Source: Nitrospirales bacterium LBB_01
Lineage (GTDB): Bacteria > Nitrospirota > Thermodesulfovibrionia > Thermodesulfovibrionales > Magnetobacteriaceae
Assembly (NCBI GenBank): GCA_004376055.2
Contig: CP049016.1
Span: 2,728,001 to 2,792,000, forward strand
Length of the DNA: 64,000 bases
Direction of reading: 5' to 3'
In this document: piece by piece, positions 1,342 to 64,000 of the stretch
Position numbering within the stretch: position 1 is the first letter of the stretch
Layout of the letters: every line of letters starts with the position of its first letter
Notes under the pieces: generated by a model
The model's input: only the letters and a program-made list of their open reading frames with translations
Database searches by the model: none
What the model was told of the DNA's origin: nothing
Translations under genes and position numbers: made by a program

Positions 1342-1536
1342 AATGCTTATTGAGTTAACTCCTGCAATTTTTTTTCAGTCAGCAAATGATACAGTTAAAA
1401 GGACTGGATTCCCGCTCGTAGGCGGGAATGACAAAGGGGGGTAATTTCTTTTTCTTGTCATTCCTTTTTTTCTTGTCATTCCTGCGAAAGCAGGAATCTA
1501 TTTTTTTGTTTGCGGAGCTAACTGCATATGCAATTT
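1342..1536. repeat. R-family palindromic repeat, copy 1
   Basis: Left arm AATGCTTATTGAGTTAACTC, then hairpin module GGATTCCCGC..GCGGGAATGAC, then GTCATTCCTGCG..GCAGGAATC, and a right arm ending in GCGGAGCTAACTGCATATGCAATT. The two hairpin modules are also inverted repeats of each other. The right end runs into the nadC stop codon at 1535-1537. Confidence 0.9.
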
Positions 1537-17699: not shown

Positions 17700-17863
17700 T
17701 TCCGCCCTCCCATAATCTTGCCACACTATATGACCTAAACGCCGTAACGCTTCAAGTAAAACACAACAGAAAATAGTTTGTCAACACACTATGAAACTTG
17801 ACCACGGGAGGCGCATTTCAGCGGGAAAGAATATACGGCTTAGAATTTTAACTCCGGTAGATG

Positions 17864-18044
17864 GTCAACTGATGTCTTATAAGAAAAGACTGGATTCCCG
17901 CTCGGAGGCGGGAATGACAAAGGGTGTAGCCTCTTCTTCAGTCATTCCTAATGACAAAGGATGTGGGCTCTTCTTTAGTAATTCCTTTTCCTTTTGTCAT
18001 TCCTGCGAAGGCAGGAATCCAGTTCCTTAATAACTAAGTCAACT
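17864..18044. repeat. R-family palindromic repeat, copy 2 (diverged arms)
   Basis: Contains GGATTCCCGCTCGGAGGCGGGAATGAC and, 70 bp on, GTCATTCCTGCGAAGGCAGGAATCC modules, with a partly duplicated middle (ATTCCTAATGACAAAGG). The AT-rich arms are less like the other copies; GTCAACT occurs near both ends. The rest of the 476-bp gap between the caspase-like gene and the phasin-like gene shows nothing clear. Confidence 0.8.
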
Positions 18045-18176
18045 ATAATGGCAATAGTAATATTTTCTTCTAATACGATTGCCACGCTCTACTAAACTTG
18101 ACAAAAGCACACTCTAAAATGTAGCATACACCCTAAGGGTTGACGTATAACTATATCGGAGGGTTAATAAAGGTTT

Positions 18177-19807: not shown

Positions 19808-19862
19808 TTGCACCCTACCCCTCTATCCCTGCACTCTTTAATGCCTGTGAAATTTCATAACT
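19808..19862 (-). repeat. Isolated copy of the 3' end of the CHAT gene (tail remnant A)
   Basis: On the minus strand this stretch encodes SYEISQALKSAGIEG followed by TAG, almost identical to the last codons of the CHAT-STAND gene (SYEISQALKRAGIEG, TAG at 21092). No upstream part of the CHAT gene is present here. It lies just before the RelE-type pair. Confidence 0.8.
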
Positions 19863-20409: not shown

Positions 20410-20466
20410 ACTCACCCCTCTATCCCTGCACTCTTTAACGCCTGTGACACATCATAAACTCTTTAC
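20410..20466 (-). repeat. Isolated copy of the 3' end of the CHAT gene (tail remnant B)
   Basis: The stretch matches the complement of the last ~50 bp of the CHAT gene (ACCCCTCTATCCCTGCACTC, then TTTAACGCCTGTGA), with a one-base insertion and a TGA in place of TAG at the end. It lies between the RelE-type pair and the DUF4258/DUF2283 pair. Confidence 0.78.
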
Positions 20467-21052: not shown

Positions 21053-21091
21053 GCGTTTGGTAATCTTGTAGATGGCCCCGCAACGTTTGCC

Positions 21092-24085
21092 CTACCCCTC
21101 AATCCCTGCGCGCTTTAACGCCTGTGAAATTTCATAACTCTTTAACGTCTTATTGATTTCTTTCACCTCGGTCAGGCACTGTGCCGATTCAGTTGGTTTG
21201 CCGGTTGCATCGTATAACATCGCAAGGTTAAAAAGGGTAGTTGCCTCCCCCTGTTTATCGCCAATCCCTCTCGTTATTTTTAAACTCTCAGTCAGATACT
21301 TTAGCGCGTTCTCATAATTGCCTTTGGCATAATATATCCCATAGATATTATTTAAGATTGTCCCTTCCCAATTTCTTTTGCCCTCTGCCCTCGCTATTTT
21401 CTCAATATCTAAATAAATCTTTAGTGCCCCGTCAAGATCGCCATATAATTGCAAAATTAAACCCATCCTGTTTAAAACATTTAAATCCGACTCCAACTTA
21501 AGCAAGTCGTAAACGGCTTTGCAATAATGGAACGCTGTTGCATACAACGAGCTGTTATAATAATAGCGAGACAATCTTGCACCGATTTCATTAATCTTAT
21601 CCTTCACTCCGGCTTTGTGATAGTGATAGAATGCCTCCTCACGTTCTGTTAAACCACCGCCTGAATGCTTTACGAAATCGTCGTAATAATCACCGGCGAT
21701 TTTATTGGAAAAGTTGACTTTAAGGGACTGGATTCCTGCCTTCGCAGGAATGACAGTGGAAGACGGAATAACTGAAGAGGACTGTGTTACTGAAGAGGAC
21801 GCCCCCTCTTTGTCATTCCCGCCCCCGAGCGGGAATCCAGTCTTTTTCAATATATCCTCTTCTGCAATTGAGCCGTCATGCTCTTTCAACAAATCTTTGA
21901 TTATCGGCGTTACGAAGTAGTATTTAACTACGTCTGTGTCGCTTGTCTTAACCGTTGAAATCTCAATGAGTGTCAGATTGCCCAGATGCAAAAGGGCAGC
22001 ATCAAAGTTAATTAAACCATCATTCTCCGGCTGTGTTGTAAGCGCCTTCATCTGCACCGGAATCCTGAAATTAGACAGCAGATACAGCGCCCGCCTTTGA
22101 TCAAAACTAACCAGTTTTAATAACTCATTAAACACAAGATTCAGCGCCATCTCAGACCTAACGTCTTTAACTTTGGCGGCTAAATCGGCTTTCATATCCT
22201 TAATCGTCTTTAACGATTCTTTAATTTCAAACTTCTTTGCTTTATATATCTCATTAAAGAATTCAAGCGCACGGAAATTCCCGCCCAAATTCTCATGTAG
22301 AAATCGCACCAAATCAACAAACTCTGCCTCTTGCTTGTCAAAAATCGTATCTAAATAGAATTTCTTGTTTAGTTCGTGGTGAATTTCAAACAATTCCAGA
22401 TATTGGCACTTTTTCCAGTAATCGTTAAACCCAATGTTGTTTAAGTTGACCTCAATTAAATTCGCAAGCCCCGGAATCACATACCGACCAGTTAAAACCA
22501 ACTGTACTATTTTTTCACTGCACAGATGTTTTATTGTCTCGTAAATATCATTATATTCCGGTAGAAACTCGCCGGTAGAAACATCCTGAAACGTCTCAAG
22601 ATTGTCAAACACTAAAACGGGTTTGAAGTCTGGCGAGAACATTCTTAACATTGAATCAACCCGAAGTATTGCCTCAGGTATAGCTCTTGTTGAAATAGTC
22701 GCATTAAGCATTTTTTCAGAGCTGGTTTTTAACATGGCAGCTTCAATCACTTTTAAAATATCGTCAAACGAGCGTACTTTATCCGTGATAATTACCGGGA
22801 CAGTTTTAGCTGGATTTTTTGTTATAGCCCGTTGAACCATATACTCAGCCATTGTGCTTTTGCCGACACCTCCCTGACCTTTTAAAAATATCGGTTTTTT
22901 ACCAAAAAACGGCTCAAACACTTTCGCCTTCGTTTCTCTGCGCCCGACAAACATGAAGCCCGCCTTATGAGACATCGAGATTTGTTTTCCTTCGGTCACA
23001 TACTGATACGTTGTTAATTCCAGAGGCGCAGGTGCGCTATCCCAATCAACGATATTTTCAATCTGCCGTGAGACGTATAAATTTGGAATCATCCATTGCT
23101 GTGTTGCATGGCTGCTCTTGAGGGCTTGCTGCTGCTCATAAACTTTTAGCCGATTTAATGCTGTTGAAAATGCCTCCGGTATAGACTGCCCGTTTGACAG
23201 CTCCGTATAGAGCGCTGCCGTAAACAATATTGCGTGCCTGTCTAACACCGACATCCCCATAGAGACGACAGCCGGAGTTTCAACGTTTAAGAGCTTACCG
23301 GTGACGCCGCTTAAAATCGCATCGGAGCCGCCCTGCGCGGTTTGACACGAGGACAGCACAACAAGCGGGATTTTGTAGCCGGAATTACTGTTGACCGCTT
23401 TTGCAAAATCGTCTTCATTTACGCGTTCACCTTTTAACGTGTAGTGATTCTCTAAGTGCAAAGAACCCTTGCCGTCTTTAAACACGCCGTGTCCGGAAAA
23501 GTGGAGGATATGGTATTGGTTGGCTTTGATTTTTGATTTCAGAGCCTCAATGGAGCCGTCATCGGTGTAGTCAATCTGCAGATGACCGGTTTTAAGCAGC
23601 GGTTCAAAGGCTTTTAGTATTTCGTATTCTTCGTCTTCTTGAGCAAGACGCGATTTATAACTTAAATCAATCGGAGAGGAAATCATAATCAGGATTTTTA
23701 ACGGAGCTGCCTTCGGTGTAAAATCAGCGGATTTCTTGTTGTTTATTGCAGTCGGCGTTTTTAATATGTGCAAGGTTTCTATGTCGCCAAGCCGAGTGTT
23801 GGTATCGGATTCAACGGCAAGCGACCACGGGAGGTTTAGGATCTCGTTGTCGTTATCAAGCAGCCGCAGGACATGATGACTGCCTTTTGTAACTGCGTCT
23901 TTAAGAATGGTTTTGACATCGGAGTCGGCATTGATAATTTTGGACATTTCAATTTTCAGAGGTTCAATGATTTTATTGTCGGCGGTTCCATCTTTTTCCA
24001 TCGCCTCGGTAAATTTTGAGCCGAGTTCTTTTAATTCTTTTTTCTTATCGTCAGGAATATTAAGTGTAACGTTTGTCCATTGCAT
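21092..24085 (-). CDS. CHAT protease - STAND (NB-ARC-like) ATPase - TPR protein
   Basis: From ATG 24085 (site GGAGGACACGAGCT) the protein has 997 residues. Residues ~1-340: CHAT caspase-like domain with catalytic His199 in ILHFSGHGVFKDG and Cys247 in LSSCQTAQGGSDA. Residues ~395-640: STAND NTPase with P-loop GQGGVGKS (403-410) and Walker B PVLVFDNLE (~489-497). Residues ~800-980: tetratricopeptide repeats (GDLDGALKIYLDIEKIAR, GNYENALKYLTESLKITRG). This is the plan of NLR-like sensors: TPRs sense, the ATPase oligomerizes, the protease acts. Similar proteins occur in bacterial immunity and regulated cell death; the trigger and substrate here are unknown. An R-family repeat is embedded in frame at residues ~745-790. 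Two isolated copies of its 3' end lie downstream. Confidence 0.92.
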   Translation of the reverse strand: MQWTNVTLNIPDDKKKELKELGSKFTEAMEKDGTADNKIIEPLKIEMSKIINADSDVKTILKDAVTKGSHHVLRLLDNDNEILNLPWSLAVESDTNTRLGDIETLHILKTPTAINNKKSADFTPKAAPLKILIMISSPIDLSYKSRLAQEDEEYEILKAFEPLLKTGHLQIDYTDDGSIEALKSKIKANQYHILHFSGHGVFKDGKGSLHLENHYTLKGERVNEDDFAKAVNSNSGYKIPLVVLSSCQTAQGGSDAILSGVTGKLLNVETPAVVSMGMSVLDRHAILFTAALYTELSNGQSIPEAFSTALNRLKVYEQQQALKSSHATQQWMIPNLYVSRQIENIVDWDSAPAPLELTTYQYVTEGKQISMSHKAGFMFVGRRETKAKVFEPFFGKKPIFLKGQGGVGKSTMAEYMVQRAITKNPAKTVPVIITDKVRSFDDILKVIEAAMLKTSSEKMLNATISTRAIPEAILRVDSMLRMFSPDFKPVLVFDNLETFQDVSTGEFLPEYNDIYETIKHLCSEKIVQLVLTGRYVIPGLANLIEVNLNNIGFNDYWKKCQYLELFEIHHELNKKFYLDTIFDKQEAEFVDLVRFLHENLGGNFRALEFFNEIYKAKKFEIKESLKTIKDMKADLAAKVKDVRSEMALNLVFNELLKLVSFDQRRALYLLSNFRIPVQMKALTTQPENDGLINFDAALLHLGNLTLIEISTVKTSDTDVVKYYFVTPIIKDLLKEHDGSIAEEDILKKTGFPLGGGNDKEGASSSVTQSSSVIPSSTVIPAKAGIQSLKVNFSNKIAGDYYDDFVKHSGGGLTEREEAFYHYHKAGVKDKINEIGARLSRYYYNSSLYATAFHYCKAVYDLLKLESDLNVLNRMGLILQLYGDLDGALKIYLDIEKIARAEGKRNWEGTILNNIYGIYYAKGNYENALKYLTESLKITRGIGDKQGEATTLFNLAMLYDATGKPTESAQCLTEVKEINKTLKSYEISQALKRAGIEG
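21720..21850 (-). repeat. R-family palindromic repeat, copy 3, in frame inside the CHAT gene
   Basis: Both hairpin modules are present (GGATTCCTGCCTTCGCAGGAATGAC and GTCATTCCCGCCCCCGAGCGGGAATCC), inverted relative to the + strand copies. In the gene's frame it reads LKKTGFPLGGGNDKEG..VIPAKAGIQS, about 45 residues, with no stop and no frame change. Confidence 0.92.
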
Positions 24086-24153
24086 AGCTCGTGTCCTCCA
24101 TCCCGTAAATATACTATTGAAATTATAACTCAGACTGTGGTGGGGATTGCAAG

Positions 24154-24241
24154 GGGGCAGCCACAGTGGGCTGCCCCTACAAGACGTTGCAAAGGTCTGC
24201 GGCAATTCCAAACACTGTGGTGCAATCTACAAGGTTGCACC
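24154..24241. other. Two short hairpins between the CHAT gene and hicB
   Basis: GGGGCAGCC (24154-24162) pairs with GGCTGCCCC (24169-24177), and GGTGCAA (24219-24225) with TTGCACC (24235-24241). They fill the 225-bp divergent gap. After them, TGCTATAAT (24268-24276), an extended -10 box, is the likely hicBA promoter. Confidence 0.55.
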
Positions 24242-27580: not shown

Positions 27581-27756
27581 AATGCTTATTGACTTAACTC
27601 CGGCAGAGAGTTTTTCTATCAACAAATAATACATTTAAAGGACTGGATTCCCGCTCGTAGGCGGGAATGACAAGAGGGGGGCTTTCTTTTTTTTTGTCAT
27701 TCCTGCGGAGGCAGGAATCCAATTTTTTATTAGCGGAGTTAACTGCATAGGCAATT
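27581..27756. repeat. R-family palindromic repeat, copy 4
   Basis: Left arm AATGCTTATTGACTTAACTC, both hairpin modules, right arm AGCGGAGTTAACTGCATAGG then CAATT. Here the short reading frame of the left arm is broken by a one-base change in phase (AACAAATAA). The repeat fills most of the 294-bp gap between two leftward genes; a CATCTGCG-like tract is just upstream. Confidence 0.9.
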
Positions 27757-33718: not shown

Positions 33719-33911
33719 AATGCTTGTATACTTAACTCAGGTACATAGTTTTATGTCAGCTAAGGATACCTTAAAAAGGACTGGATTCCCGCTCGGGGGC
33801 GGGAATGACAGAGGAGGGGATTTTCTTTTTCTGTCATTCCTTTTTTTCTTGTCATTCCTGCGAAGGCAGGAATCCAGTTTTTTCTTTGCGGAGCTAATGG
33901 CATAAGCAATT
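33719..33911. repeat. R-family palindromic repeat, copy 5
   Basis: Left arm AATGCTTGTATACTTAACTC, both hairpin modules separated by a T-rich middle, right arm GCGGAGCTAATGGCATAAGC then AATT. The left arm keeps an ATG-led reading frame (LKRTGFPLGGGNDRGG). Confidence 0.9.
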
Positions 33912-41158: not shown

Positions 41159-41368
41159 AATGCTTATTGAGTTAACTCTTGTAGATTTTTTTCAGTCAGC
41201 AAATAATACAGTTAAAAGGACTGGATTCCCGCTCGTAGGCGGGAATGACAAAGGGGGGCAATTTTACAGGGGAATTCCCTTTAGGGGAGGTCATTCCTTT
41301 TTTTCTTGTCATTCCTGCGAAGGCAGGAATCCATTTTTTTGTTTGCGGAGCTAACTGCATAGGCAATT
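41159..41368. repeat. R-family palindromic repeat, copy 6
   Basis: Arms nearly identical to copy 1 (AATGCTTATTGAGTTAACTC; GCGGAGCTAACTGCATAGG then CAATT). Between the two main modules it carries an additional palindrome CAGGGGAATTCCCTTTAGGGG-like block, shared only with copy 7. It occupies most of the gap before lpxK. Confidence 0.9.
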
Positions 41369-45002: not shown

Positions 45003-45461
45003 TTATGTGTTATGAGCCTCCATGCGGATTTCGCCATAGGGCGGGGTTATCTTAACAGCGAAAATAAAATCCTTTACATAGACCATCACAATGCCTCCGC
45101 CGGTTGTGCCGTTTGTAAAAAACAGTATCGGGGTAGGGATATAGACGAAGTTATTTTTTGTTTTACCGGTTTTTGATTCCTGATGCGGCCCTTCTGACTT
45201 AGCAGTGAACTCTTCTGAGAACTTTTGTGCAACTCCGTTAACAGTTATAAGCCCCGTGTCGGTTTCAACTAGTTTTTCCTCTCCGTCAAGGAATGACTCT
45301 CTTTGGAGCTTAAACATAAAGAGCATGACCTTTTCAGCTTCAAGAGAAGCCATATACCTGTTATACATCCTGACTGAGACCGGCACTGTCACGGCAAAAA
45401 TCAGTCCTATGATTACTATTACGATAAGCAGCTCTATGAGTGTAAAACCCTTTTGTCTCAT
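45003..45461 (-). CDS. Pseudopilin, GspH-like
   Basis: The product (152 residues from ATG 45461) starts MRQKGFTLIELLIVIVIIGL, the canonical prepilin motif with Glu at +5, followed by a ~120-residue soluble domain without the GspG calcium-site pattern. The ATG lies at the edge of a MITE-like element that fills the space to gspF; the open frame upstream is entirely element sequence, so earlier ATGs (45473, 45503) are unlikely to be the ancestral start. Part of the leftward G-E-F-H operon. Confidence 0.85.
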   Translation of the reverse strand: MRQKGFTLIELLIVIVIIGLIFAVTVPVSVRMYNRYMASLEAEKVMLFMFKLQRESFLDGEEKLVETDTGLITVNGVAQKFSEEFTAKSEGPHQESKTGKTKNNFVYIPTPILFFTNGTTGGGIVMVYVKDFIFAVKITPPYGEIRMEAHNT

Positions 45462-45583
45462 GCCAAGTTGCATTCTATCGCCTAACTGCGTTGGCATCGT
45501 CAAAAACTCCTCAACGTACTAAAAGTACGCCTCCGTCGCTTTCTCCTTGCCGCCTTGTTATACTTCTGACTGCTACTTGGTCT
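45460..45583 (-). repeat. MITE-like element M, copy 1, between gspF and the gspH-like gene
   Basis: 124 bp, ends AGACCAAG.. and ..CTTGGCAT (minus strand), internal hairpin CGTACT TTT AGTACG. Flanked by a direct repeat ATGAGAC. It begins on the last base of the gspF stop codon and ends on the second base of the next ATG. Confidence 0.88.
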
Positions 45584-46788
45584 CATAGTTTTATGTTTCC
45601 TACATTCATTACGGTTAGAATTAGTGAAATCACGATAAACCCCACAATTATACCCATCAGAATTATTATAGCAGGCTCTATCAAAATCACAATTCTCTTA
45701 ACCGCTCGTTTAAATCGGTCGTCAAAGACATTAAATAGCTCAAGGAAAATCTCTTTCATATTGCCGCTTTTCTCGCCAACAGTTACCATGCTGGGGACAA
45801 TATCAGGGAGCATCTCAATTCCAGAGAACACCTCCCCGATAGAGCGCCCCTCTTTTATCAGCTTCAGCGCTGGTTGAAACACGTTTCGTATTCTTTCGTT
45901 TTGAATCAAATCTATCGAATATTTAAGGGCTTTAATAAACTCTATCCCGCTGCTAAGCATTGTGTGCATGGAGTAGGAAAATCTGGAAAGCTCCAGGTTT
46001 AATATCAGGGTTCTAAACACCGGGAGGGAAAGTGCTCGGGCATAAGCGCTATGAAAGAGCTTCTTGACTCCGACATATTTAAAAAACAACACAATTGCTA
46101 TGATAACGCCAAAAATTACATAAAGATTTAGATATTCGCTCATTGCAAACAGCATTTTTGAAACAGCAGGCAGGTTTTTAATTTGATCAGCCCCAAAAAC
46201 GCTAAAAAACCGTGGGATTATGAATTTAAATATGATAAACAGTGTTACCATGCTGGCAAGAATTAAGAAAACAGGATATGTCAAATTGTTTTTGATTTCT
46301 GCCTTAAATTGAATCTGAAACTGAAGATTTCCTGCTATTTGTTCAAATGACATCTTAAGATCGCCCACACTCTCGCCTACTCTGATAACTGAAAGCATGA
46401 GGTTATTGAATGTGCCGGTTTTTTCAAATGCGTCGGCTACACTTTTACCGGCTCTGATTTCTTTCACCGCACTTCGCAGACACGCTTTTAGCGCCTGATT
46501 TGACGCCGTTTGTGTCACAATTTCAAGAGAGTTGTCAATGCGGAGTCCGGCTCGTAAGAGCACACTGAGTTCTTTGGCCATGTTATAGAGATCGGCCTCT
46601 CCGACTGTTGTTTTTTTTACAGAAAACGATGAAAACGGTGACTTGATAGATACCGACTCAGCAATTGAGACAACCTTAAGCCCCTTGTCTTTAAGCACAG
46701 TCCGTGCTTCAGAGATAGTGGAAGCTGTGAGAGTGCCGCTTGTTTCTTTACCTGTGAGATCAACACACTGATACTTAAAGCTGCTCAC
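45583..46788 (-). CDS. gspF: Type II secretion / type IV pilus inner-membrane platform protein
   Basis: The 401-residue protein has the two T2SSF domains: residues ~70-190 (LYNMAKELSVLLRAGLRIDNSLEIV, GKSVADAFEKTGTFNNLMLSVIRVGE) and ~270-395 (LELSRFSYSMHTMLSSGIEFIKAL, MVTVGEKSGNMKEIFLELFN), with three transmembrane helices. GspF/PilC anchors the ATPase and pseudopilus assembly. Starts 4 nt inside gspE's end. Its TGA stop is TG plus the first base of a MITE-like element. Confidence 0.93.
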   Translation of the reverse strand: MSSFKYQCVDLTGKETSGTLTASTISEARTVLKDKGLKVVSIAESVSIKSPFSSFSVKKTTVGEADLYNMAKELSVLLRAGLRIDNSLEIVTQTASNQALKACLRSAVKEIRAGKSVADAFEKTGTFNNLMLSVIRVGESVGDLKMSFEQIAGNLQFQIQFKAEIKNNLTYPVFLILASMVTLFIIFKFIIPRFFSVFGADQIKNLPAVSKMLFAMSEYLNLYVIFGVIIAIVLFFKYVGVKKLFHSAYARALSLPVFRTLILNLELSRFSYSMHTMLSSGIEFIKALKYSIDLIQNERIRNVFQPALKLIKEGRSIGEVFSGIEMLPDIVPSMVTVGEKSGNMKEIFLELFNVFDDRFKRAVKRIVILIEPAIIILMGIIVGFIVISLILTVMNVGNIKL

Positions 46789-53614: not shown

Positions 53615-53647
53615 GCCGTAGCCCCCCTCAAAAGTACTTACCCTCTC

Positions 53648-53772
53648 ATACCAAGCTGCAGGCAGAAGCATAACGAGGCGGCAAGGAGAAAGCGACGCAG
53701 GCGTACTTTTAGTACGTTGAGGAGCTTTTGACGCATGCCAACAAAGTTAGGCGATAAAATGCAGCTTGGTAT
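53648..53772 (+). repeat. MITE-like element M, copy 2, between the receiver and NlpC genes
   Basis: 125 bp, ends ATACCAAGCTGCA.. and ..TGCAGCTTGGTAT (13-bp perfect terminal inverted repeats in this copy), core GCGGCAAGGAGAAAGCGAC and hairpin CGTACT TTT AGTACG. TCAT adjoins both ends. Its last base is the A of the TGA stop of the leftward receiver gene. Confidence 0.9.
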
Positions 53773-58739: not shown

Positions 58740-58932
58740 AATTGTCTTTGTGGGTAACTCTGCCAATAGAAACTGGATTCCTGCCTTCGCAGGAATGACA
58801 CTCCACTAAAGGGGATTCCCCTGTAAAATAGTCCCCTCCTTTGTCATTCCCGCCTACGAGCGGGAATCCAGTTCTTTTAAATATATCATATGCTGACATA
58901 AAACCCTCTGCCTGAGTTAACACAATAACCAT
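58738..58932. repeat. R-family palindromic repeat, copy 7
   Basis: Inverted relative to copies 1 and 4-6. Carries both hairpin modules and the additional CAGGGGAATCCCCTTTAGTGG block shared with copy 6. A short CATCTGTGTCATCTGCGG tract follows at 58940. Confidence 0.9.
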
Positions 58933-63034: not shown

Positions 63035-63159
63035 ATACCAAGATGCCAGTCAGAAGTATAACAAGGCGGCAAGGAGAAAGCGACGGAGGCGTACTTTTAG
63101 TACGTTGAGGAGCTTTTGACGATGCCAACGAAGTTAGACGATTGAATGCGGCGTGGTAT
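63035..63159 (+). repeat. MITE-like element M, copy 3, between rpsI and argC
   Basis: 125 bp, ends ATACCAAG.. and ..GTGGTAT, same core and hairpin as the other copies. It starts two bases after the rpsI stop and its last two bases, AT, are the A and T of the argC start codon. Confidence 0.9.
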
Positions 63160-64000
63160 GAGTGGAAAAATACGTGCTGTAATATGTGGCGCAAGTGGTT
63201 ATACGGGTGCAGAGCTTTTACGGATTCTCTGCAGCCATCCTAAAGTTGAAGTAGTAGCAGCAACATCAGAAAAGTCGGCAAACAAGCCTGTTACGGACTT
63301 GTTTCCGCACTTATCACAGTATTCCAGTCTAACCCTTGAACCCCTCAACATTGAACCACTTCTGGACAAGGGCGATGTGTTTTTCATGGCTTTGCCTCAC
63401 GGAGCTTCTCAAAAAGCGGTCAATTCATTATATGAACATGGTAAACGGATTATTGATTTATCGGCTGATTTCAGACTAAGAGACCCTGTTGTTTATGAGA
63501 AATGGTACAAAGAAAAACACGGTTATCACACAGCCCTTTCATCTGCTGTTTACGGACTTCCTGAGCTTTACAGAGAATCCATTAAAAATGCAAAGCTGGT
63601 AGCTAATCCCGGTTGTTATCCAACATCGGCGATTTTAGCGCTTTTCCCTGCCCTTACTCAGAAAATTGTCAACACCGCAGACATTGTGATTGATTCAAAA
63701 TCGGGAGTTTCAGGGGCCGGTCGCAAAGCTGACCTTGCTCTTTCCTTTTGTGAGGTAAATAACGGATTTAAGGCTTATGGCGTCAGCACTCACAGACACA
63801 CGCCGGAGATTGAGCAGGAACTTTCGGTTATTGCCGGAACCGATATAAAAGTCAGCTTCACCCCGCATCTGATTCCTGTAAATCGCGGAATGCTGAGCAC
63901 TGTGTATGCCAAACTTAAAACTGATATTGCAATAGATGATGTAAGTGCTATTTATAATGACGCATATAAGAATGAGCCTTTTGTAAAAGTGCTGCCAAAG
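63158..64000 (+). CDS. argC: N-acetyl-gamma-glutamyl-phosphate reductase, 5' part
   Basis: ArgC makes N-acetylglutamate semialdehyde in arginine synthesis. The 281 visible codons start MSGKIRAVICGASGYTGAELL (Rossmann loop GASGYTGAEL), include FMALPHGASQKAV, IIDLSADFRLRD, the catalytic Cys in VANPGCYPTS, and SGVSGAGRKA. The gene continues past the window edge; expected full length is ~345. The ATG at 63158 is formed at the edge of a MITE-like element, and no other start fits the family. Confidence 0.96.
   Translation, partial: MSGKIRAVICGASGYTGAELLRILCSHPKVEVVAATSEKSANKPVTDLFPHLSQYSSLTLEPLNIEPLLDKGDVFFMALPHGASQKAVNSLYEHGKRIIDLSADFRLRDPVVYEKWYKEKHGYHTALSSAVYGLPELYRESIKNAKLVANPGCYPTSAILALFPALTQKIVNTADIVIDSKSGVSGAGRKADLALSFCEVNNGFKAYGVSTHRHTPEIEQELSVIAGTDIKVSFTPHLIPVNRGMLSTVYAKLKTDIAIDDVSAIYNDAYKNEPFVKVLPK

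Follow-up and report, generated by a model that had tools for sequence, protein, structure and literature searches.

The gene for a CHAT-STAND-TPR protein in the window, the stretch of 64,000 nucleotides analysed here (G000:C1:2728001-2792000, from a source genome of 3.27 Mb in one contig), carries an in-frame insert of about 47 codons that derives from the R family of palindromic repeats. The insert (21725..21868 (-)), delimited by the empty sites of homologues and by HMM comparison, is an internal fragment of an R-family MITE without terminal inverted repeats (TIRs). It is best read as selfish DNA that became fixed as a neutral flexible linker, and it is quite probable that a MITE inserted once, before the divergence of the congeners, and that its TIR-less remainder was kept because the linker tolerates differences in length. 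We infer that the insert is translated, flexible, and neutral, and that it lost its ends after insertion.

CHAT-STAND-TPR proteins are immune-receptor-like. The open reading frame at 21092-24211(-) would give 1039 aa if read from a TTG at 24211; the start codon is likely Met43 at 24085, since stop codons precede the equivalent of Met43 in homologues, resulting in a probable CDS at 21092..24085 (-) with 997 open codons. Domain searches assigned residues 118-373 to a CHAT domain (PF12770; 23093..23860 (-), E 7.5e-27) and residues 951-1019 to TPR_12 (PF13424; 21155..21361 (-), E 1.5e-14), the latter 3' of the insert and in the same reading frame. Between them lies a STAND-like P-loop ATPase region (22481..22903 (-)) with the motif GQGGVGKS and a match to AAA_22 (PF13401) slightly under the curated cut-off. 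PADLOC returned a generic TPR match and nothing more, and the gene was therefore assigned to no named defence system. Its 50-nt 3' end is present three times in the window (19813-19862, 20410-20459, and 21090-21139), the copies alternating with small toxin-antitoxin-like gene pairs; perhaps they are what is left of paralogues since lost, or mark a site of cassette insertion.

The insert corresponds to residues about 782-829, following the helical region on the ATPase side and preceding the TPR part, and reads in context ...DGS-IAEEDILKKTGFPLGGGNDKEGASSSVTQSSSVIPSSTVIPAKAGIQS-LKVNFSN.... Inspection of the sequence and its frame revealed neither stops nor frameshifts and, together with the empty homologues, bears out the preliminary description of an in-frame, stop-free insertion between STAND and TPR; its extent, given there as 21720-21850 with ~45 residues, had to be corrected to the coordinates and length above. 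A first palindrome (ATTCCCGCTCGGGGGCGGGAAT, 21815..21836 (-)) is separated by a spacer coding for GNDKEGASSSVTQSSSVIPSS (21752..21814 (-)), which shows a 12-residue tandem expansion in a G002 allele, from a second palindrome (ATTCCTGCGAAGGCAGGAAT, 21732..21751 (-)). Against an HMM of the full-length family, the gene copy scored 101 bits over model positions 33-163 of 188; with this score, and with 237 exact occurrences of the family core in the genome vs. 0 for a reversed control, the match is not due to chance. With positions 33-163 matched, the copy has no terminal repeats of its own, and no target duplication could be demonstrated at its site; just five elements have this form, with both ends missing. 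The added residues are mostly low-complexity, and AlphaFold rendered them as a coil with the lowest confidence of the chain. This model was poor overall (mean pLDDT 55.5, 8 sequences), says little on the flexibility of the insert, and was judged unfit for a fold search.

The R family as a whole is a MITE, as evidenced by its terminal inverted repeats and by eight matching flank positions. Alignment of full-length copies revealed an element of ~190 bp with imperfect TIRs of ~22 bp (AATGCTTATTGAGTTAACTCCG / CGGAGCTAACTGCATAGGCAAT), and the A/T-rich target site duplication of 8 bp was measured in 100 full-length copies, where, with two bases per side counted as element, exactly eight flank positions match at 0.76-0.84 and adjoining positions at 0.2-0.6 (z 18 for this offset, at most 3.9 for any other). 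Element lengths of 160-241 bp are too short for a transposase of their own. Full-length elements make up 113 of 267, and 65 terminal-repeat sites were listed. The consensus contains the palindromes ATTCCC(N10)GGGAAT and ATTCCT(N8)AGGAAT; the original designation as a palindromic repeat needs correcting, the family being a MITE and the gene copy an internal fragment of it. An intergenic full-length copy at 1342..1534 (+) served as reference. Further full-length copies in the window lie at 27581..27755 (+), at 33719..33910 (+), at 41159..41367 (+), the last with an 8-bp target duplication, and at 58743..58930 (-), shortly 5' of a 715-codon open frame; the copy at 17850..18060 (+) has diverged ends.

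Counts across genus, family, and order show that the core palindrome is widespread: congeners possess 45 (G002), 4 (G003), and 1 exact cores, up to 212 occur in other genera of the family, and at least one is present in 57 of 100 genomes from the order. The TIR-bearing MITE form was seen in the host genus. A search of Rfam gave nothing at gathering scores, no similar DNA turned up in a plasmid collection, and a literature search on the encoded peptides (VIPAKAGIQ and others) found none. A second repeat family, of about 90-116 nt with copies 89-95% alike, occurs in the window at 45457-45588, 53643-53733, and 63047-63162.

Homologues of the gene were found in three genomes of the same genus (G001, G002, and G003) and one of the same family (G008), among 60 related genomes searched. 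Five of them are empty (G002 C20, G003 C101, G003 C37, G001 C10, and G008 C51), with LLKEHDGQ running straight into VxVxFSN; of these, C37 (1112 aa) and C10 (1124 aa) are intact, and the full set of TPR matches is present in C37. The TPR part, checked for disruption or absence in homologues, was present, and homologues without the insert keep it; the insert behaves like the tolerated linker that had been suggested at the outset.

Filled homologues (G002 C27, G003 C118, and G002 C51/C33) carry the insert at the identical site and in the identical frame. C27 and C118 are 99.8% identical and were counted as one allele, and C51 and C33 of G002 probably represent opposite ends of a single gene, at whose repeat the contigs break. 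Since all filled homologues have the site in common, as well as LKKTGFPL as left arm and LKVNFS as right flank (the latter missing from the empty ones), a single insertion event is likely behind the filled alleles. In a tree of the part upstream of the insert, the filled G002 C51 is sister to the empty C20 with 100% support, and a single insertion would thus require recombination among paralogues or precise loss. All length differences between the inserts of filled alleles are multiples of three and preserve the frame (in the alignment, about +15 and -33 nt in C27, +18 and +21 nt in C51, and +3 nt in C33), and the 12-residue repeat SSVTPSLSNTQS is expanded in frame in the G002 C51/C33 allele. 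By comparison, no more than 36 of 162 non-coding copies stay in phase and free of stops from palindrome to palindrome. Comparison of the window gene with its homologues gave dN/dS values of about 0.12-0.18 for the part before the insert and 0.24-0.42 for the part after it, alike against filled and empty partners, showing that the coding sequence on either side is under purifying selection.

From these observations we propose that a MITE of a genus-level family would have entered the coding stretch for the linker between STAND ATPase and TPR part once, before the sampled congeners split. Its terminal repeats may have been lost afterwards or never brought in, and the remaining fragment, read in the open frame of the family, would supply about 47 extra residues. 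The insert could then have been carried and reshuffled among CHAT-STAND-TPR paralogues, its frame-keeping length changes being those seen, and it would persist because its site is a flexible, length-tolerant linker. Selection would remove nearly all genic insertions, with few in-phase ones in a linker or cleaved leader surviving.

The survey of coding insertions covered 267 distinct elements from stretches around the listed copies, including 219 of the 237 exact cores. The window copy is the only one with at least 50 conserved-protein codons on both sides, and the genome holds in-frame coding insertions in two cases, namely the CHAT-STAND-TPR gene and a prepilin leader; the latter answers the question of whether at least one other in-frame insertion exists in this genome. 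Two candidates for internal insertions, L101 and L131, proved to be spurious short frames that encode no conserved protein and were rejected; L026/L232, L231, L230, and others, in which the frame enters a gene with its own downstream start or adds a tail, were likewise kept out of the count of internal insertions. At L230 (about 2982500 of the genome) and L040, one frame gains about 55 residues at its C-terminus from the R-family element, and the right end of the element forms a possible ATG start for a signal-peptide protein. The 45 cores of G002 yielded convincing in-frame cases in the CHAT-STAND alleles and the prepilin only.

In the prepilin (PF07963 motif), a nearly full-length R-family MITE lies in frame within the leader and makes up most of it (G000:C1:782260-782507; L105:1166-1414, L269), and ATG, GTG, and TTG are all absent between the element and GFTLIEA. 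In G002 and G003, the element occupies the same site (L260, L261, L270, and L271; leader of 76 vs. 83 residues), and the orthologue of G001 is without it. In G005, a member of another genus in which 25 cores were examined, the orthologous prepilin (L285/L331, G005:C105:86525-86887) has a core in its leader, MNNINESVIPAKAGIQSSEN-GFTLVEA, and its start codon may be the ATG of the repeat itself. Though related to the R family by its core, the repeat of this leader is judged a different element, because flanks like its own, reading MSNINKSVIPAKAGIQ, recur at other copies in G005. G005 also encodes a kinase-like/zinc-ribbon/TPR protein (C97, L330:279-2036) with a core in the linker from kinase to zinc ribbon, the palindrome being read in the antisense frame (WIPAFAGMT). 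All four in-frame cases (CHAT-STAND-TPR, two prepilin leaders, and the kinase linker) are at sites tolerating extra residues, and it is this length tolerance of the other cases that speaks for reading the window insert as a tolerated linker. That palindromic repeats in this family of the Nitrospirota might go further and serve as recurrent raw material for length-tolerant protein segments is an idea to which we give a rather small chance. In one genus, the MITE would have provided a tunable hinge for the CHAT-STAND-TPR protein and the greater part of a prepilin leader; in another, a related MSNINKSVIPAKAGIQ-like repeat with an ATG-led frame of its own would independently have given rise to the leader of the orthologous prepilin, its start codon perhaps included.

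Improbable, too, and somewhat more so, is an adaptive role, in which the insert would provide a longer hinge between TPR sensor and STAND switch, a repeat-prone and tunable spacer kept by selection. The frame is kept in all filled alleles, the in-frame growth of SSVTPSLSNTQS in G002 C51/C33 is strong, and the two coding inserts of G003 account for half of the only four exact cores there, as though coding copies outlast others; however, such retention is equally expected from the rarity of frame-disrupting or precise loss in a coding site, the empty homologues of 1112 and 1124 aa are intact, and of the four filled sequences in the sample (C27/C118 taken as one), the three other than that of the window are damaged elsewhere. 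In C27/C118, a -1 frameshift near residue 724 splits the gene, by fission or decay, into two parts that in G002 C27 (L265:1787-5136) form frames of 695 and 428 aa with a 25-nt overlap, a split common to G003 C118. G002 C51 has a frameshift near residue 305, and in G002 C33, the frame is broken by a 149-nt insertion at residue 913. This insertion (L064/L268, about 526-674) is another repeat, with the ends ATACCAAGTAGC...GCTACTTGGTAT. Since every other filled allele is damaged elsewhere, the insert may be mildly harmful, yet the empty allele G002 C20 has a nonsense codon.

The frameshifts, nonsense codon, and further insertions in several paralogues and filled alleles, together with pieces of the 3' end of the gene scattered downstream, could also point to a pseudogene in decay, with the insert harmless and its frame left open by luck. 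We regard this as quite unlikely: the reading frame of the window gene runs open for 997 codons, dN/dS is well below 1 both before and after the insert, and insert length differences are frame-keeping across alleles.

As proposed earlier from a comparison of copies, the frame used by the gene is one that the family shares: the consensus is open in it across the whole element (LIELTPVDGFLSANDTFKRTGFPLVGGNDKGG...VIPAKAGIQ...), and it is also open in one antisense frame. Taken alone, the open frame is weak evidence, because dinucleotide shuffles of the consensus also produce open frames (at least one fully open in 26%, at least two in 3.6%) and because an in-phase, stop-free stretch from one palindrome to the other occurs in only 36 of the 162 non-coding copies that have both. 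Nor does the shared open frame testify to selection for coding in the element, given that lengths modulo 3 are spread almost evenly among elements (21/28/32). A specialised protein-coding palindrome, whose ATG-led frame was selected to add a harmless peptide, is accordingly the least credible reading and a very improbable one, despite the two open frames of the consensus, which shuffles match in 3.6%, and the identical element frame of both coding insertions in the genome, given that in-frame coding elements are just 2 of 267, that lengths modulo 3 show no preference, and that the frame used is open from end to end in only 18 of 81 full-length copies.

With a neutral linker as the preferred reading, the insert belongs to a known kind of event, of which it is a fresh example and a far rarer case than in Rickettsia. 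Rickettsia palindromic elements and ERIC demonstrate that open-frame MITEs can become joined in frame to conserved proteins (PMC2229807, PMC10969869), and orthologues share the position of Rickettsia inserts (PMC3767692). Like the R family, these elements (RPE-1, -2, and -3) are short and palindromic, have an open frame, and occur in frame in conserved genes, and the CHAT-STAND and prepilin sites in G002 and G003 are likewise common to orthologues. In contrast, the R family is a Nitrospirota MITE with measured 8-bp target duplications, likened to them by description; its gene copy lacks ends, and coding insertion is very rare. The parallel drawn earlier therefore applies to the kind of event and not to its frequency, which is 2 of 267 here vs. 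nearly half of the R. conorii copies in ORFs, as reviewed (PMC10969869).

With our case, selfish palindromic DNA inserted in frame, a phenomenon known best in Rickettsia, is seen in a genome of free-living type in the Nitrospirota as well. The case offers empty and filled alleles for comparison, a MITE family defined together with its target duplication, and a denominator (2/267). It suggests that survival is decided by the tolerance of the protein site, such as a linker or cleaved leader, and not by a special design of the element, and the independent repeat in the orthologous prepilin leader of another genus makes this idea testable.

Other families resemble the R family in part, again by description. 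ERIC (IRU, RU-1), a 127-bp enterobacterial MITE with contiguous open frames fused to conserved proteins, as reviewed (PMC2229807), is like it in in-frame fusion and belongs to another taxon. The Coxiella families QMITE1 and QMITE2 overlap or adjoin ORFs; QMITE2, with 150-190 bp and direct repeats of 7-11 nt, is similar in length but differs in holding a GTAG REP and in its location, being reported chiefly from 3' untranslated and intergenic regions (PMC5896051). The neisserial dRS3, ATTCCC(N8)GGGAAT (PMC3898611), has the same kind of ATTCC...GGAAT palindrome, but the R family does not fit its pattern, having ten and eight spacer positions in its two palindromes, the latter flanked by ATTCCT and AGGAAT, and both lying within a MITE that has terminal repeats. 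A sequence that does fit the dRS3 pattern, ATTCCCGCGCAGGCGGGAAT, is carried by some relatives in the order.
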